DNA from: Pohlia nutans
Lineage: Eukaryota; Streptophyta; Bryopsida; Bryales; Mniaceae
Length of the DNA: 64,000 nt
NCBI GenBank assembly: GCA_022496805.1
Contig: CM040099.1
Location: forward strand, 21,498,031 to 21,562,030
Direction of reading: 5' to 3'
The notes beneath the pieces were generated by a model. That model worked only from the letters and a program-made list of their open reading frames with translations. It searched no databases and was not told the origin of the DNA. The position numbers and the translations under genes are program-made. This document shows positions 954 through 12,325 of the stretch, piece after piece; the first letter of the stretch is position 1, and every line of letters begins with the position of its first letter.

Positions 954-1780
954 TCACCCACTTTCCGGCCGGACATATGGGCTTTTGATCGGCGACGGTC
1001 GAACGCTCATATCGAGTTCTTGTGGGATTGTTGGTTCTTCATATGTGATGGAATCTGCAGAGAAGTGGGCAATTATATGGGTGTCTGGGAAGGGCCCCGT
1101 GTGTGGGGAAATTTTTTGATACCAGTTTGTATCTGGTATTACTAGTATAGTGATGGTATTTGGGTCGGTTTTGGCTGCCAGTCGTGCCCAGTGAATTGCT
1201 TGTTGGGTTGTTTCTTCATTATATGGGTGGGCGTAGCCTATGCCTTTCCATTTGTATTGAAAGGCGGTACCGAGTGATCCAAAGACTTTATCTCTTGCAA
1301 AGAGAGAGTAGAATTCTGAAATTTGTGTGGAGCATGTTATTGGTGATGAGAAGTAAGAATGGGAGATATTAAAGGAGGTAGTAATGGAGTCAAGAATGCT
1401 TGTTGGTAGGGTGTGTTGTGCTGCTTTTAGTGGGTCTTTTCTGGGGATTTTATGGTTGTATCTTTGATAGAGCCATATTACTTCTTTTTCAAATGATTGT
1501 GTTTGCGGTACTAGGCCGTGTGAGCTATAGATTGCTTTATTATATTGTTGCCATAACCATTTTAGTCTCGTGGTTGGTATAGTGGTAAGATGTCTACCGG
1601 TATTTTCGTATAGGTGGGTTTGTTCATTATTTATTTGTATGGTATCGTAATTGGAAATAATGTCTTTTTCCGGGTTGCATTCTTGTATGTGTATTTGTGT
1701 GAGCGGGGTGGATGTGGATGGTGGGATGAATCTTGCATCTCTGCTTTGTTCAAGAGTGAAGTGTGTGTTAATAATTTTTT
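954..1780 (-). other. C-terminal domain of LINE ORF2 (unassigned)
   Basis: The minus-strand frame continues past the two TAA codons (1812-1814 and about 1785) and stays open for some 275 codons to the TGA at 954-956. It contains HFTLEQSRDARFIPP, YFSSPITCST, FARDKVFGSLG, YKWKGIGYAHPYNE, AIHWARLAAK and TITILVIPDTNWY. This is not the RNase H or CCHC knuckle usual in plant LINEs. It loosely recalls a methyltransferase-like or restriction-like fold, but I see no NPPY-type motif and cannot assign it. Confidence 0.6.
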
Positions 1781-2721
1781 AGTAGTGGTTGTGTTGTGAT
1801 TTTGTGTAGTATTATGTTAGTAGTTTAATGTTATGTGTTATGATAGTTGGGTGGTTGAAGGGGAAGATTTCTCTTTGTGGCAACCATTTGCTGTATGTGA
1901 TGTTGTTTTGGAGAGTCCATTGACATAGGTATGTATTATATTTTTTTGTTATTTTGTATTTATCTTTTGTGGATTTTGTTTTATGGTCTAGTATTATGTT
2001 GATGGGAAATCTTAGTGGGTTGTTTTTGACATTGGGGGGTGGGTGTGGGTGCAGGTTTTGATGTGGGGCTGGGGGTTGAGGTGGATTATCTGGTGCTCTA
2101 GGTAGTAAATTTTGATTATGTGTGATATATCTAGGTTTTAGCATTCGGGCGGGAGGGTGTCGTGCACATAGGTTCAGGCAATTTGGTGTGCAACTTGGAT
2201 AGCAAAACAATTTTTCAGCTATTTGAAGTGCACTTCTTTCTAGTTTGGTTGGTGTTTTGTAATATGTTTTGAAGTTTTTTGGCGTCATAAGGGTTGTTCC
2301 GTTGGGAAGGGTGATGTGTTTTATTTCATATATGTTATGAATTAATAATTTGTGTAAAAGTTTGAGTGATAGTTCGGGGTTGAGATGTAGAAGTTCAATT
2401 GTCGCTTGTGCTCGCCATTCTCGTTCCAATTCTGTCATATGTAGCTGGAAATTTTCATGTGTATTTTTGAGGTGTATTTCTCCAGCATTTTTTAGCAGAA
2501 ATAGTGTACGTATGGTTGGTGAATTTATGCAATCATATTTTGTGATTCTTGGGATTTCTTCCGCGCCTCCATATTTGGCTAATATGTGTTGTATAAGTCC
2601 TTTGTATATTATACCTAGTCTCCCTTGGTCGTTAAGGGCGTTTTGAAGTTGTTCACCAATGCATCATAAGTATGCGTTTTTTTAGTGAGAAGGCTTCAAG
2701 ACCAAAGAGTTCGTGAGGTAA

Positions 2722-3536
2722 TAACACGCAATTCCCAATTTATGCACTTGGCCATATAATCATGCGTTTGGCCCTTGGGCGCAATAAAAAATTTGTCTAA
2801 AAAATTCTTTAAAAAATTTCAATTTTTGTCTTTCTACAATTACTTACATTGTAAACAAACAATTCTTTTATTTATTTTTTATCCGTATCTTTATATTTTC
2901 TTTTACCTTTTCTTTTATCTTTTCTTTTATCTTGTTTTCTTTCTTGTCTTCTTTCTTGTCTCCATCTTGTTTTCCTTCTTGTCTTCTTTCTTGTCTCCAT
3001 CTTGTTTTCTTTCTTGTCTTCTTCTTTTTCTTCTATATTTCTTCATTTCTTACTTTTCATTTTTTTTCCTTCTTGTGGCAGCCGCAAGTCCTACACTCAC
3101 AACAATTTTTTTTATTTTTTTATTTTATTTATTTTTTTATTTTATTTTTTTCCGGTTCTCTTCTTCTTTGTATAGGGTTCAGCCATTGTGGTGCTGAACC
3201 CTAAAATAAATTTTAAAAAATTGATTTTTTTTAGGGTTCAGCCGCCGGCTGAACCCTAACCGGCGGCCAAAAAAAAAAAAAAAAAAAAAAATTTTTTTTT
3301 TTTTTGGCCGTTTCGGCTTCTCCCTCTCTTCCCTCCCCTCTTCCCTCTTTCTGTCATTTTCCTCTCCCTCTCCCTCTCTTTCTCCCTCTCCCTCTCTTTC
3401 TCCCTCTCCCTCTCTTTCTCCCTCTCCCTCCCCCTCTCCCCTATATATATGAGCGGAGGGAGAGGAGAGAAAGGAGAAAAGAGAGACGAGAATGGGATAG
3501 GGTGCGCGGCCGCGCACCCTATCGACCGAAACAGCC

Positions 3537-3567
<31 letters not shown>

Positions 3568-4153
3568 TTTTTATTTTTTATTTTTTTATTTTTTTTTATT
3601 TTTTCCTGTGCCGGCGTTTAGGGTTCAGCCAGAGGCTGAGCCCTAAAAATAAAAAATAATTTTTTTTTTAGGGCTCAGCGCCACAATGACTGAACCCTAA
3701 ACAAAGAAGAAAACCAAAAAAAAAAAAAAAAAAAAAAGTTTTTTTTTTTTTTTTTTTTTTTTTTTGGTTTTTTTCCTCCTTTGTTGTGAGTGTGGGACTT
3801 GCTGCTGCAACAAGAAGAAAAAAAGTGAAAAGTAAGAAATGAAGAAAAATAGAAGAAAAAGAAGAAGACAAGAAGAAAGACAAGAAGGAAAACAAGAAGG
3901 AAGACAAGAAGGAAAACAAGAAGGAAAACAAGATGGAGACAAAAAAGAAAACAAGATAAAAGAAAAGATAAAAGAAAAGATAAAAGATAAGGATAAAAAA
4001 TTAATAAAAGAATTGTTTGTTTACAATGTAAGTGATTGTAGAAAGACAAAAATAAAAAAAATTTAGAGAATTTTTCAAACAAATTTTTTTAAGCCAAATT
4101 TGCTCGTGAAATGAGTGCACTTGGCCAAGTGCATAAATTGGGAATTGCGTGAT
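2722..4153. mobile_element. Foldback/MITE-like element with long terminal inverted repeats, inserted in LINE
   Basis: The ends are inverted copies. CACGCAATTCCCAATTTATG at 2725 onward recurs reversed just before 4153, and pairing continues for roughly 450 bases on each side (about 2722-3200 with 3680-4153). Removing the element joins the LINE reverse transcriptase frame cleanly (ANVIT-Q-LPHEL), which identifies a target duplication of TAA (2719-2721 and 4154-4156), possibly TAAT. A three-base TAA/TTA duplication suits PIF/Harbinger-type elements. There is no transposase, so it is non-autonomous. The interior is palindromic and homopolymer-rich. Confidence 0.85.
3222..3665. repeat. Palindromic, homopolymer-rich core of foldback element
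   Basis: The core holds short palindromes such as GGTTCAGCCGCCGGCTGAACC near 3236-3257, a CCCTCTCTTT-type pyrimidine repeat (about 3320-3440) and a perfect 28-base palindrome at 3496-3523 centred on GCGGCCGC. Long A and T runs (3270-3300, 3537-3565, 3717-3765) flank these. Reading frames reported here are low complexity (Lys, Phe, Ser, Pro runs) and are not genes. Confidence 0.7.
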
Positions 4154-4156
4154 TAA

Positions 4157-5370
4157 TTGGGTTATTACGTTTGCTGTGCATTTTGGTAGACCACATATTG
4201 TTTTTTGGATTCCTATAATTTTTTTATCTAGTTTTTTGATGGTCGGTAATGAGTATGAGACTGCATAGAAACTGTATGCAATGCCTGCTCTAATGACGGT
4301 GTCAACCATGTTGAATTTTTGTTTAATTGTGGTAGGGCATTTGGCTAGTTGTTTACATTGGTCTATTATTTTGTTTGTGGTGATGTGCGTTTGGAGTTTC
4401 CATTTTAGTGAGGGTACTAGTTGAATGCCTAAGTATACATATGGTTCGTTTTGGTGTAGGACTGGTATTGGTTGATTTCTATAAGATATGTTGTGGTTTT
4501 GTATTTGGGTTTTAAATTTTTCAGGATTTAGTTTGGATTTGTTGGGACATCCAGTGATGGCACATTTTTGTACGCCTAAATCCATTCCAGCCCATTCACA
4601 GAATTTATCTAGTTTGTTTAATTGCGTTTGTAGTGATTGGAGATTATTTGTTATAGCTGCTAAGTCGTTTGCGTATGCTGCAGAGCTAATGGTAAATTTT
4701 GATGTGCCAAATGTGTACCCGTTATTTCCTCTTTGTAACCATCTGAGTAGTGGTTCAAGGAATATCAAAAATAAGTATGGGCTTAGTGTATCTCCTTGGA
4801 TGGTGCCTCTTTGAATGGGTATTGGTTTTGTTTTGCCGAAGTGTTCACCGGTGAATACAGTGGTAGAGTGTGAGTAGATATTTCCAATTAGTGTTACTGC
4901 ATCTGTTGGATATCCAAGGTCTTTCATTATAGCTAATAGTCTAGCATAGTCAAGGGAGCCAAAAGCATTTTTGAAATCTATGTATAGGAGGTATATGTTT
5001 TGGTTTGTAAATCTGGCGTCTTCCAGGGCTGCTATGAGTAGTTGTAGCTGTCTAGATGTGCTTCTTTCTATTCTAAATCCTTCTTGACTGTCGTGGAGTA
5101 TTTGAAATTTTTCACCATATGCTGATAATATTAGTGTTAATGTGCTAGTAAATAGTTTGTAAATTTTGTTTGCAAGTGCTGTAGGTCTGCGGTTTGGTAA
5201 TAGTGATGAGTGGGTCACCTTTTTTGTACAAAAGTATGGTTAAACTTGTTTTCCAAGATGCTGGGATTTTCTTTTGTTTATAACAATGGGTGAAAAATAA
5301 GAATAGTAGTTTGTGAAAGCTATTAGGCATATTTTTTAATATTGAGTTTGGAATTTTATTTGGACCTGGT
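4157..5370 (-). other. Reverse transcriptase domain of LINE (N-terminal part)
   Basis: Reverse transcriptase signatures are clear: NKSPGPNKIP at the start, NRRPTALANKIYKLF (motif 2a), LLYIDFKNAFGSLDY (motif A), IQRGTIQGDTLSPYLF (motif B) and YLGIQL after motif C. Motif C reads AYANDLA where active enzymes have Y-x-D-D, so the first catalytic Asp is Asn (a single GAC to AAC change would do it). A one-base frameshift lies near 5190-5205. The domain stops abruptly at 4157 where the foldback element is inserted. Confidence 0.9.
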
Positions 5371-6329
5371 GATTTGTTGTTGGATAGGTGTTTTAAACAT
5401 AGGTCGTATGATTCCTTGTCGAAGTACTTATGTAGTGGTGTTTGAGGGTCTCCTCTTTTATCTATAATAAATCCATCTAGGTCGTGCCATGGGTATTGTT
5501 TGACTCCACATGTGCAATTAGATGGGTGCTCTGGTTGGTAGTAACATGTTGGGACTGTGGGTCTATTACTAATTGATTGTTGGATATAAATTTCATTTGC
5601 TATGTTGTTTGGGCTAGTTAAAATGTTGTTGTTTCTATCCAAAATGCAATCTAACGGTGGTGTTTCGTGGTTTTTGAAGACTTTTTTATTTATTTTCTTG
5701 GGGCTTTTTTCATATAGTTGTCTGTATTTTGTGATAGCTTTTTTAACACATTCTTGTGTGTACTTTGTGGTAATTTTACGTGCTTGTTTGTTTGCGTTTT
5801 TAGCAAGTTCTGCTAAGTTTTAATCCATTCTTGTGGATTTAATTCTGGGTTAGGAGGTGGTGGTATGATAGTGTGGTTGTGGTTTTTCAATTCATCTATT
5901 ATTGGGTGGTTGTGCCAGTTTGGTGTGGTTTTTGTTATGTATATTGCTTTTCTGATTAAGTGGTAGGTAGATAGGTGTTTTTTCCCTTTTTTCTGGAGTT
6001 TTCTTGGCAAAAAACCTCCTTGTTGAGCTGTGCGGTGTGTTAGTGAGGGTAGAGGTGGAGCACTACAGGTTTCTTGAATTTTTTCTGATATTTGTTGTAT
6101 TAAGTGGTCTAATTTTGTGCAAGATGTTTGCCATTGGTTGTTTGTTAATTGTTCATTCATCAATATTGTAGTGAGTTCATTTATTTGAAGTGAGTTTTCT
6201 TCAAAAAATAATGTTTTGAATTTTTCAATGTTATCTTGTGGGATGGGGTTTAGAATCATTGGTGGTTTATTTGCTTTTGGTTGAGTGGGGTGAGCTAGTA
6301 GTGTGTTTGGTGGTATTTGTAGGGTGACT

Positions 6330-7075
6330 GGTGAGTGGTCTGAGTTGAGGTTGTAGTCATGGTTTGTGGTTGAGGTATATAATGTATTATTGTGAGTTTT
6401 GATGTAGTATCCATCTATTAGACTTGTTTGAGTGTAATTTTTTCCACCTTGTCTGGTGAATGTGCTATTAGTTGGTATGTAGGTTAAATCTAGAGAGTCT
6501 GTGAATGTACGCCATTCTGTGTCTTCTGTTTGTAGAGGTGTTATGTTGAACTCATTTTGTCTGCCGATAAGGGCTATGTCTCTATTGAAATCGCCACATA
6601 AAATGTATGTGTGGTTTGGGTGTGCTGTCATTTGTTGTTCTATTTGTTGTTGTATTACTGTTATGTATTGAATATCTTCTAAGTGGGAAGGCATGTACAT
6701 GTGTAGTATTAGCCAGGGTTATAGTGGTGCATTTTTAATTTGTATAATTTGTAAATATGGTGAGATTTCAGCTGGGGTAGGTATTTTGGTGATATTTCCC
6801 AGGTATGAATATTTGTTATTTATTAGAGTGAGGAGTCCGCCTCTAGCAGGGGTATATGGCATTCTTTGTTGCATGCATCTTGTTAAGGCGTGTGTGTTGT
6901 TGAAGATTAGTTTGTATTGTGGAAATAGGTTTTGTATATATCTTGTTGATTTTGTTGCCGTTAGTTTGGTTTCTTGTATTGTGATAATTGCTGGATTTGT
7001 TGTGGTGTTTGAGATTAGATTTTGTAGACTTGGTAGGGCTGTGTTTAAAGATGACGTGTTCCATGTAATAATGTG
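6330..7075 (-). other. EEP (APE-like) endonuclease domain of LINE
   Basis: Family landmarks appear in order: TWN near 7063, IQETK, RGGLL, GDFN, SLIDGYY and SDHSPV near 6340. These carry the metal-binding Asn, Glu and Asp and the catalytic Asp-His pair, so the active-site residues are kept. A single in-frame TAA (6719-6721) interrupts the domain between RGGLL and GDFN. The enzyme nicks target DNA to prime reverse transcription. Confidence 0.85.
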
Positions 7076-7703
7076 TGTGTTGTGGTTTGTTGTTTGTGTC
7101 TCTTGGATTTGTGGTAAAGGTATATTAGGTAGTGGAGGTGGGTGTGAATATTCATTTATAGGTTCATTGCATTTGAGAGATTCTTTTAGTAAGTTTTTGG
7201 GTAGGAATGGGAATTTGTTTGTTAGAGTTTGGTGGGTTAATGTTTTGATTGATAAAATCATATAGTTGTTTATGTATGGTATTGGGGGGGTTAATTAGGT
7301 TGTGGTTGTTGTTTTTAAATTCGGTGTATGGGTGTGGGTTTAAGATGTGTCTTTCGGGGGGATTTTGAAGAAGTGCCATTTTCTCAAGAAGTATTGTTGT
7401 CCAGTCTGGGTCGGGAATTTGTATTAATTGGTGGTCGCATGATTCTAGTAATGGACTTAGCGTGGTAATGAGAGCATATAGCATGCACGGAGGTGAGTGG
7501 TGTTGGTTTTCAAGTATGTATTTTGAGAGGTGAGGATAGTCTGTGGATGCTTCAAGATGGTTTGGGTGTGTTGTTTTTAAACAGGGAGCAAACTTTTTTG
7601 CTAAATCTTGGTACTCTGGATGTAGTTTTATTGTGCATGATATAAAATATGTTTTGTTTCTATTTTTATGTGATGTAGGATGTGTTTTAAGTAAGCTTGG
7701 CAT

Positions 7704-7748
7704 TGGTCCCGGGTTAGTTTCAATGTCACCAGAGAGTACTAGTAGTAG
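7704..7748 (-). other. 2A-like (CHYSEL, ribosome-skipping) motif in LINE ORF2
   Basis: The minus strand reads LLLVLSGDIETNPGP, followed at once by the ATG at 7703. The core matches the 2A consensus D-(V/I)-E-x-N-P-G-P with the usual G before D and a leucine-rich run before it. In known 2A peptides the ribosome skips the final Gly-Pro bond, so one frame gives two separate products. 2A-like motifs at the start of ORF2 are known from animal and trypanosome LINEs. Here skipping would release the Lys/Asn-rich leader from the endonuclease/reverse transcriptase. The motif is read directly from the sequence. Activity is inferred. Confidence 0.85.
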
Positions 7749-8004
7749 TTTTGGGATATGGTAATTGATTAAGTCTGGTTTGATGTTAATTTTGTTTTTG
7801 TTAGGAAGGTGTTTTTTGTTTTTTATGAGGGGTTTTGAGGCCTTTTTATTTGTTTTGTTAATGGTGTGTTTTATGTGATTGTGGTGAATAGGATTTTTGT
7901 AATTACGATTATTATTATTAATATTTGGATGGTTATTAGATGGGGTGTTTTTGTATATTTTTTTGGGTGTATTAGTTTTGTGAAGTGGTATTGTTGTGTG
8001 TGAT

Positions 8005-8034
8005 TTTTGGCCGAGGCCGGTAGGCCGAGGCCAC
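8005..8034. repeat. GGCCGAGGCC direct repeat in LINE leader
   Basis: Two copies of GGCCGAGGCC lie 5 bases apart inside otherwise AT-rich leader DNA. On the minus strand they encode KWPRPTGLGQ, so the repeat is part of the open frame. Confidence 0.6.
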
Positions 8035-8392
8035 TTAGAGTTTATGTTTTGGTGGTTTTTTGGGTGGTTTAATTTTATTGGTATTTTTTGGTTTGGATTG
8101 ATGGAAGTCCATTTATGTTTAGATGAGTTTTTGTTTTGTTTATATGTTTTTATTTTGTTTTTGATTTTGATTTTGATTTTGTTGTTTTTAATTTTGAGGT
8201 AGTTTTTGGTGGTGTTTTTTTGTAGTTTTTTATTTTTTATTTTGTGTTTTTTTATATATTTTATAGCATCTATAGATATTATAAATATCTGTTTGTTTTT
8301 GTGTTTTTTCTTCTTTTTTTCCTTTTTTATAATTACTTTTTTCTTAGTATATAAATATACTCGTAGATTTACCGCTGCGTTGTTTGTCCAAG

Positions 8393-10022
8393 TTAGTTTG
8401 ACGTGTTCATGTTGCCATCTTCAATGGCTAGAGTGTTGCCACTTTTCTCGTCCAAGGCTTGCATAGTACTAGCAAGTTGTCTTCTAAGGATTGTCATTTG
8501 CGCTGTCAGGCTTGATGATGACTTCTCCACTGCTTTCTCTGCGATTTGTTGTTGTTCACTGTGGAGTTCTTTCTTCATGGTGGAGATTTCTTCTCTAATT
8601 CCGACTATTTCTTTCATAATGTCATTTTGAGGTGTCTCTTTTGCGGAATGTCCTATTGCTTCTATGGTGTTTGCTAGGGCAGTGTTCACATCACTGAACC
8701 CTAGCCTTGTGAGTTCAGCAGCATTGGGGGCGTTTGCACCATCGAGACTCCTAGGACGTGCAATAAACTCTACATGTTTGCCAAGAAGTTTTACAGACTT
8801 CTTGACAAACGTCTTGTACACTGTAGCATTGAGACATTGAATGTTGCATGAGCCTAAGTGTTTACCATTCTTCTTTTCACGCTTGAAGAAGAAGCTCACC
8901 GCATTTCTTAGTCCCATGTGAGTTTCGATGCTTGCTTCTGTTTCTTCAACACTCTTTGTTTTGTTGAGATTCTTGGCGATAAAGATGAGTGCGTTCTTCC
9001 TTGCAATGTCATCCTTTGCGTTTACACGATCCGCTAGTTTCCCCTCTAAGATCTCGTGGTTGTATGTGATTTGATGTTCTTTCATTTTTTGAGCTTGTTC
9101 GGGAGATGCTGCTACTATCTAAGCAAAGAGGTTTTTTTTTTTTTTTTTGAACATTCGTTATCTCATACTCCATTCCTCTTTTTAAACTCTCCACTAGTAT
9201 TTTTTCATAGAGTTCATACCATTCCTTGTGCTCTAGTTCTGCACTTGTTACTTTGATTGATAAGAGGTTGTTCAAAGCAAGGGAGTCGTAAGTTTTACAA
9301 ATTTTTCCTCTCTTGAACTTCTCATGGTCAAGTTGGAGGATGAATGGTCTTAACCCTTGGAAAAGGCCCACTCCATCAATTTCGGGGTTTTTCAAGTGCA
9401 ACTTGATAACCCCGCTCCACTTAGTGGATTTGTGGTAGCACATGATGGCAATGGGTTCCCTAATGATATCCCCAAGCAGAATGTTCATTTCTTTGAGTCT
9501 CTCCTCTACCAATGACATGATAATTTCTTTTTCCCATTCTTTTTCCCCCATCTTGAAGAGGATGGCGATTTGGTAATCAAAGGAGAAGCCATACTTATCA
9601 ACCTCAACATCAGATGGAATCTGTGTGAGGTTGAAGTGTTGGCCATCCATGCCATCCTCCCGTGAGTTGGGCCATTCCTCTTGAATGACAAACGGGAAGG
9701 AGATCAATGTTGATTGACATTCCTTAGCTTCCTTTTCTCTCATCCCATTCTTATCAAGCGTTGCTACAGGTTCGTTACTATCCATGGGGTAACCTTTTCC
9801 ACGGTTTGTCCAATTCATAGCTTGATACCCAAGCCAAAAGGGAGGGCGCTTCAAACCGGAGTTTGATTTGCTCTTGGCCTTGTTTTGGCTTGTAGCAACT
9901 TGAGATGAGTTAAAGGTGCGTTTCTGAGTTACAAACATTTCTACATCCAGGTCATTGTCTAAGGCTTAGAGCTTGTCTTTGTATCGTTGAGAGGAGGTGG
10001 AGCTAGTGGGGCGTTGAGACAT
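8393..10022 (-). pseudogene. LINE ORF1 protein, broken
   Basis: The frame starts at the ATG ending at 10022 (MSQRPTSSTSSQRYKDKL). It is interrupted by TAA at 9966-9968, continues from DNDLDVEM to about 9150, shifts frame at an A run (9131-9148 on the plus strand is poly-T), carries TAG at 9119-9121, and ends at 8393-8395. It encodes about 540 residues. The middle has FSFDYQIAILFKMGEKEWEKE and IAIMCYHKSTKWSGVIKLHL, and the end is a coiled-coil-like Glu/Lys/Gln stretch (EIVGIREEISTMKKELH). It precedes ORF2, as LINE ORF1 RNA-binding proteins do. I recognise no named domain. Assignment rests on position and the coiled coil. Confidence 0.65.
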
Positions 10023-12129: not shown

Positions 12130-12325
12130 GGTTGAAGACGGGGCGAGGGCGTTCATGTCTGGCGAGGGCGTCGAGGGCGTTACGAGCGTCGAGGGCGCTG
12201 CGGGCGTCGAGGGCGTCGGGGGTTGTCGAAAGTGTCGGGGGCGTCGAGGGCATCGAGGGCTATCGAGGGTTGTCGAAGGCTGTCGAGGGCTATCGAAGGC
12301 TATCGAAGGCGTGGAGGGCTGTCGA
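12130..12325. repeat. GTCGAGGGC minisatellite
   Basis: About twenty degenerate 9-base units related to GTCGAGGGC or ATCGAAGGC follow each other. Because 9 is a multiple of 3, open frames run through on both strands, which explains several spurious Ser/Pro/Arg-rich frames here. Confidence 0.8.

Follow-up and report, generated by a model that had tools for sequence, protein, structure and literature searches.

A conserved 2A-like peptide in a decayed, likely Dualen/RandI-type LINE of Pohlia nutans

The window, by which we mean the whole 64-kb stretch of Pohlia nutans DNA that was analysed, very probably contains a decayed LINE, likely of the Dualen/RandI type, whose conserved 2A-like (StopGo) peptide is predicted to split a leader from the endonuclease and reverse transcriptase of one reading frame. 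Both an APE-type endonuclease (PF14529) and a reverse transcriptase (PF00078) are present in the window. The first-pass annotation had described a plant LINE with a 2A-like site, and this description stands: the site is an in-frame, conserved feature of the family, the two domains were found and plant genes lie in the same window. The ORFs 61951-61340 and 58845-58237 match both ends of the xyloglucan fucosyltransferase family PF03254 (E 4.3e-40 and 2.6e-39), which we take to be a plant family. Since both ends of one such gene are present, the host of the window is a plant. Pieces of an ABC transporter occur at 32-49 kb. The plant label of the LINE family is drawn from the window alone, not from the contigs of close relatives.

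In StopGo translation, as outlined in PMC12846837, the peptide ending in NPG is released and translation resumes at the proline. By analogy with this known mechanism, ribosome skipping is predicted for the LINE 2A. The nascent GDIExNPG peptide would stall in the exit tunnel, the stalled leader peptide would be released with the last Gly-Pro bond skipped, and translation would restart at the proline, with which the downstream protein would begin. A single reading frame would in this way yield two proteins, one the leader polypeptide and the other the endonuclease/reverse transcriptase.

The 2A-like peptide and the leader frame in the window

Positions 7748-7704 of the minus strand read LLLVLSGDIETNPGP, a 2A-like (StopGo) peptide which matches the D(V/I)ExNPGP core exactly. 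The codon that follows directly (7703-7701) is Met, and the motif thus stands at 7748-7704, immediately before a methionine, just as it had first been reported. Even with up to one mismatch permitted, the back-translated core has a single match in the 64-kb window, and dinucleotide-shuffled windows gave none (0/100). The assignment of 7704..7748 rests on the motif itself, on these shuffles and on its retention in relatives and in a second group of elements. The break is predicted between Gly (codon 7709-7707) and Pro (codon 7706-7704).

Upstream of the peptide, the same frame is open from 8420 and forms a leader rich in K, N and I (7749..8420, minus strand), predicted from the ORF, the stop counts and the composition to encode the upstream product. 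The 238 codons between 8417 and the motif's end contain no stop, compared with 17 and 23 stops in the other two frames, and none of 5000 dinucleotide shuffles remained open in the leader frame or in any of the three frames. As 223 of these codons precede the 15-residue motif, the earlier observation of a frame open for more than 200 codons was correct. In the window copy, none of the 239 codons counted through the end of NPGP encodes Met, and the start of the upstream product is therefore not visible there. The characterization of the leader as Lys/Asn-rich applies to the window copy (K 24%, N 16%), but the commonest residues across 33 leaders of relatives are T (15%), K (12%) and N (10%). In-frame similarity of the window leader to the relatives reaches as far as 7883.

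The leaders of the relatives are up to 895 residues long before the core, and some of them bear repeats. In 13 of the 16 leaders with an RPRH/RPRQ unit, 96 residues separate this unit from the end of NPGP; in two leaders with an RPTGL/RPIGL unit the corresponding distances are 114 and 124 residues. Judged from the sequences, the long leaders and the set RPRH/RPRQ-to-NPGP spacing fit a translated leader. A hydrophobic stretch (mean hydropathy >1.6 within the first 80 residues) was found in 3 of 33 leaders. The A-rich leader of the window contains a GC-rich word, CCTACCGGCCTCGGCC, at 8009-8024 (minus strand), its sole match in the window, and RPTGLA or YRPRHK units occur in leaders of relatives, repeated in some. 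These two units could be one DNA word read in two frames, and the CCTACCGGCCTCGGCC word may be an element at the DNA or RNA level and not a motif of the protein.

Conservation of the site in the family and in Haematococcus lacustris

The search with the reverse-transcriptase part gave 159 matches, and among the best 120, which were listed, P0024 and P0025 hold a 2A site. With a profile of seven sequences, headed by P0024, 144 matches were obtained (best 120 listed); the search words came from the motif-holding part, which favours motif-bearing matches. Of the 231 pooled relatives, 106 could be aligned, together with the window, in the domain that follows the 2A. The site is covered by 64 of these and by the window; 41 of the other 42 begin downstream of it. 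The site is canonical D(V/I)ExNPGP in 40/64 relatives, carries H at position 14 in 6/64 and Q in 4/64, and is broken in 14/64, five of the broken cores reading NLGP. Intact members devoid of the motif had been named at the outset as evidence against a 2A in this family, and the outcome is mostly in favour of the 2A: 50 of the 64 site-reaching relatives keep the motif and 14 do not.

The core columns hold 3.5-4.3 bits of information each and the free position 1.9 bits, compared with 0.5-1.8 bits for the leader from -60 to -14, values that were taken in an ungapped register and are lowered by leader indels. Conservation peaks clearly at the 2A site, which is flanked by a loosely conserved leader on one side and a conserved domain on the other. 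Upstream of the core, G occurs at -1 in 61/65 sequences, C or S at -2 in 56/65 and L at -4 in 59/65, and positions -13, -11 and -9 are partly conserved (Y 45/61, F 39/61 and N 41/61, respectively). All larger branches of a tree built from the sequence following the core contain intact sites. The broken sites require 11 changes, the shuffled mean being 13.0, and are scattered across the tree as scattered decay would give; the two-row branch of P0198 and P0219 is wholly broken and another branch has 7 of its 17 rows broken. H14, carried for example by P0148, appears in two separate branches; P0025 is among the Q14 members.

The arrangement proposed for an intact element is seen in P0025 (1131 aa), where leader, 2A, endonuclease and reverse transcriptase follow one another in one frame, both domains being assigned by Pfam. 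P0024 has the same one-frame order by alignment; a Pfam search of this protein gave no domain. A precomputed Pfam endonuclease domain is present in the same protein in 16 of the 50 relatives with an intact site. Tandem 2A-like cores, two per protein, were observed in P0148, P0172, P0214 and P0236. Such tandem cores would release three products; the repeat in P0236 may be a gene-model fusion.

A second group of elements comes from Haematococcus lacustris. Its protein P0078, which matched the reverse transcriptase with 36% identity over 75% of the searched part, holds LLLACGDVEANPGP. Searching with the front part of P0078 yielded 47 proteins, 22 of which align across the site and 25 of which do not. 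The site is canonical in 22/22 of these proteins and 23/23 sites, many of which are near-copies of one another. P0234 combines in one protein, in this order, the 2A, Josephin (PF02099), APE endonuclease (PF03372), reverse transcriptase (PF00078), RNase H (PF00075) and a restriction-like signature. In both P0234 and P0245 a Josephin-type protease domain is located between the 2A site and the endonuclease.

Layout of the window copy and probable affiliation of the family

All parts of the element lie on the minus strand and are distributed over several frames. The domain after the 2A occupies frame A (7164..7703; ORF, similarity and structure prediction), which runs for 179 codons and closes at TGA 7166-7164. 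Helical structure is predicted for its portion 7182-7703, confidently so for the first ~110 residues, and no solved structure matched it clearly. The first part of the endonuclease is read in frame B (6719..7294), which is out of frame with the 2A and ends at the stop 6721-6719, and its remainder lies in frame C (5813..6718; PF14529, E 1.8e-07). The claim that the 2A frame continues to the endonuclease had to be abandoned for the window copy, as that frame is closed at 7166-7164 and the endonuclease is read in frames B and C. Frame D (5145..5819; ORF and similarity) encodes a linker and the start of the reverse transcriptase, and the reverse transcriptase domain is located in frame E (4151..5239; PF00078, E 6.2e-24), with 82% identity to its best relative over 99% of the searched part. 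The LINE resumes past an insertion in frame F (1812..2721; ORF and similarity), followed by a PCIF1_WW-like domain in frame G (954..1778; PF12237, E 1.8e-13). Similarity of the element to its relatives covers 999-2721 and 4013-7883; it stops at 999, and the RNase H/restriction-like endonuclease end of the relative P0093 is missing in the window. The window copy is decayed, and the whole ORF2 protein can no longer be encoded from it.

The insertion is a foldback (inverted-repeat) element at 2726..4150, with ends placed by eye and approximate, and splits the LINE within its reverse-transcriptase part. It has terminal inverted repeats of ~30 bases (by eye) and long A/T tracts. PCIF1_WW (PF12237), presumably a cap methyltransferase family, is also present in 16 of the best 120 of the 159 reverse-transcriptase matches. 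At the position of NPPF, which we assume to be its catalytic motif, the window has AHPY and P0032 has SPPF (by eye), and these sequences suggest that the activity may be lost in some copies. Elsewhere in the window, two overlapping ORFs of 318 and 241 aa at 8393-9965 (minus strand) meet at a run of A and gave no Pfam match, and short GC-rich tandem repeats resembling TCGAGGGC occur at 12161-12310.

On the basis of domain content the family is likely of the Dualen/RandI type. P0093, which shares 67% identity with the window element across 25% of the searched part, carries PCIF1_WW, RNase H (PF00075) and the CX2C..HX4C..RHN..KPD signature of restriction-like endonucleases. We take CX2C..HX4C..RHN to be the signature of these endonucleases, as in R2-type elements. 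It was found in 26 of 268 proteins, including P0093 and the Haematococcus P0234, and 7 of the first 17 signature-bearing proteins also have PD..E. A sequence search of the end of P0093 against solved structures gave 0 matches. The reverse transcriptase scored 85.9 bits against R2 chains and 44.5 bits against human L1 chains. We know of no report of a 2A in Dualen/RandI elements. Dualen is set apart by possessing an APE and a restriction-like endonuclease, according to PMC4640811. Haematococcus P0234 would resemble Dualen/RandI in having APE, a candidate restriction-like endonuclease (by its signature) and RNase H all in one protein, whereas in the window's own family the two endonuclease types were seen on separate fragments.

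Alternative readings, known 2A systems and significance

The Met after NPGP, present in the window and in 33 of the 51 intact sites (window included), might be the true start of ORF2, with the upstream frame untranslated and the motif coincidental, and the Met-free leader of the window agrees with this. We nevertheless regard it as very unlikely. The residue after NPGP varies over the 51 intact sites (M 33, R 6, I 4, L 4, K 3, T 1; 18/51 non-Met), and Met follows NPGP in 0/23 Haematococcus sites; owing to this variation it is not a start codon. The core is conserved and most of the leader is not, the upstream frame is kept open, and the constant 96-residue distance between the RPRH/RPRQ unit and NPGP in 13/16 leaders also speaks against a start codon at this Met. 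We likewise consider it unlikely, if somewhat less so, that in this copy translation of the ORFs at 8393-9965 shifts into the leader frame within the 28-base overlap 8393-8420 and that their tail is the upstream product. The ORF that ends at 8393 does overlap the leader frame opening at 8420, and a leader devoid of Met would suit such a fusion. The base composition, however, shifts sharply near 8400 (G 0.06 at 8101-8400 vs 0.21 at 8401-8700), and blastx of 8393-9965 against the 231 relatives produced one match, with E 0.64. Moreover, leaders that begin with Met and resemble one another at the start occur in some relatives: P0148 and P0172 share 34% over 114 columns from residue 1, and P0148 and P0195 share 45% over 29 columns.

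The motif could also be kept for a role other than skipping, for instance as part of a leader domain or in a protein contact, with one chain made, and the conserved region is indeed wider than the octapeptide, positions -13, -11 and -9 being partly conserved. We give this little credence, about as little as the frameshift fusion. The allowed changes follow the StopGo pattern (position 15 free, I/V at 13, E/H/Q at 14, G before D), which comes near to the residues described as used or active in PMC12846837, and the motif is kept by both groups, the reverse transcriptases of which share 36% identity across 75% of the searched part (P0078). That an A-rich, low-complexity frame spelled a 2A core by chance has a negligible probability: the leader region is 51-60% A, yet the core was absent from all 100 shuffles. 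The chance origin is refuted by the relatives, 50/64 of which keep the core.

2A-bearing APE-type LINEs of animals were reportedly described by Odon et al. in 2013, and Heras et al. in 2006 are said to have described a 2A in L1Tc of Trypanosoma cruzi. The 2A of these elements lies near the protein start. The family studied here shares with them an in-frame 2A-like peptide, an APE-type endonuclease and a reverse transcriptase. It differs in its plant host, with the second group in a green alga, in its relatives with restriction-like signatures, RNase H, PCIF1_WW or Josephin, and in its long leaders, which bear repeats in some members, two 2A cores being present in some. The occurrence of 2A in LINEs of animals and trypanosomes is established (PMC4981915). 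The signal sequences with 2A-like function in sea urchin are similar in that the 2A ends an N-terminal leader and in that a few leaders here have a hydrophobic stretch, but that case concerns host NLR genes with a 26-residue 2A leader, in contrast to a LINE whose leaders reach 895 residues (PMC4981915).

Viral StopGo sequences of the L-rich class resemble the LINE site in the core, in the upstream LL..(S/C)G and in the position-14 variants, and by inspection the upstream context of the family agrees with the L-rich class ending in (A/S/C)G (PMC12846837). Variants with H at position 14 have >95% activity, and E14Q is cited at 56% or 26% in the same source (PMC12846837). By this comparison, the upstream context of the family and its H14 would fall within the reported active range and Q14 would be partly active. 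2A peptides function in plants when engineered in (PMC4981915 and PMC12846837). In 2026, a survey covering nearly 10,000 sites in viruses gave no evidence of natural use by plant viruses, whereas the user here is a retrotransposon (PMC12846837). A search of the open-licence literature, mostly at the level of titles and the beginnings of abstracts, found no 2A in a plant or green-algal LINE, and Rao 2025 may list some. The green-lineage setting of a LINE 2A looks new.

We suggest tentatively, and with more doubt than conviction, that StopGo may be ancient and native in dual-endonuclease LINEs of the green lineage, predating the split of chlorophytes and land plants, and that it may have been elaborated by stacked cores (P0148, P0172 and P0214, with three products) and by E14H and E14Q changes that would tune the leader-to-polymerase ratio. 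By retaining the site, one LINE family in a plant and another in a green alga would count as natural users of StopGo in the green lineage. Together they provide dozens of evolved 2A sequences, position-14 variants among them, and prompt one to ask how the amount of polymerase is controlled by a LINE.
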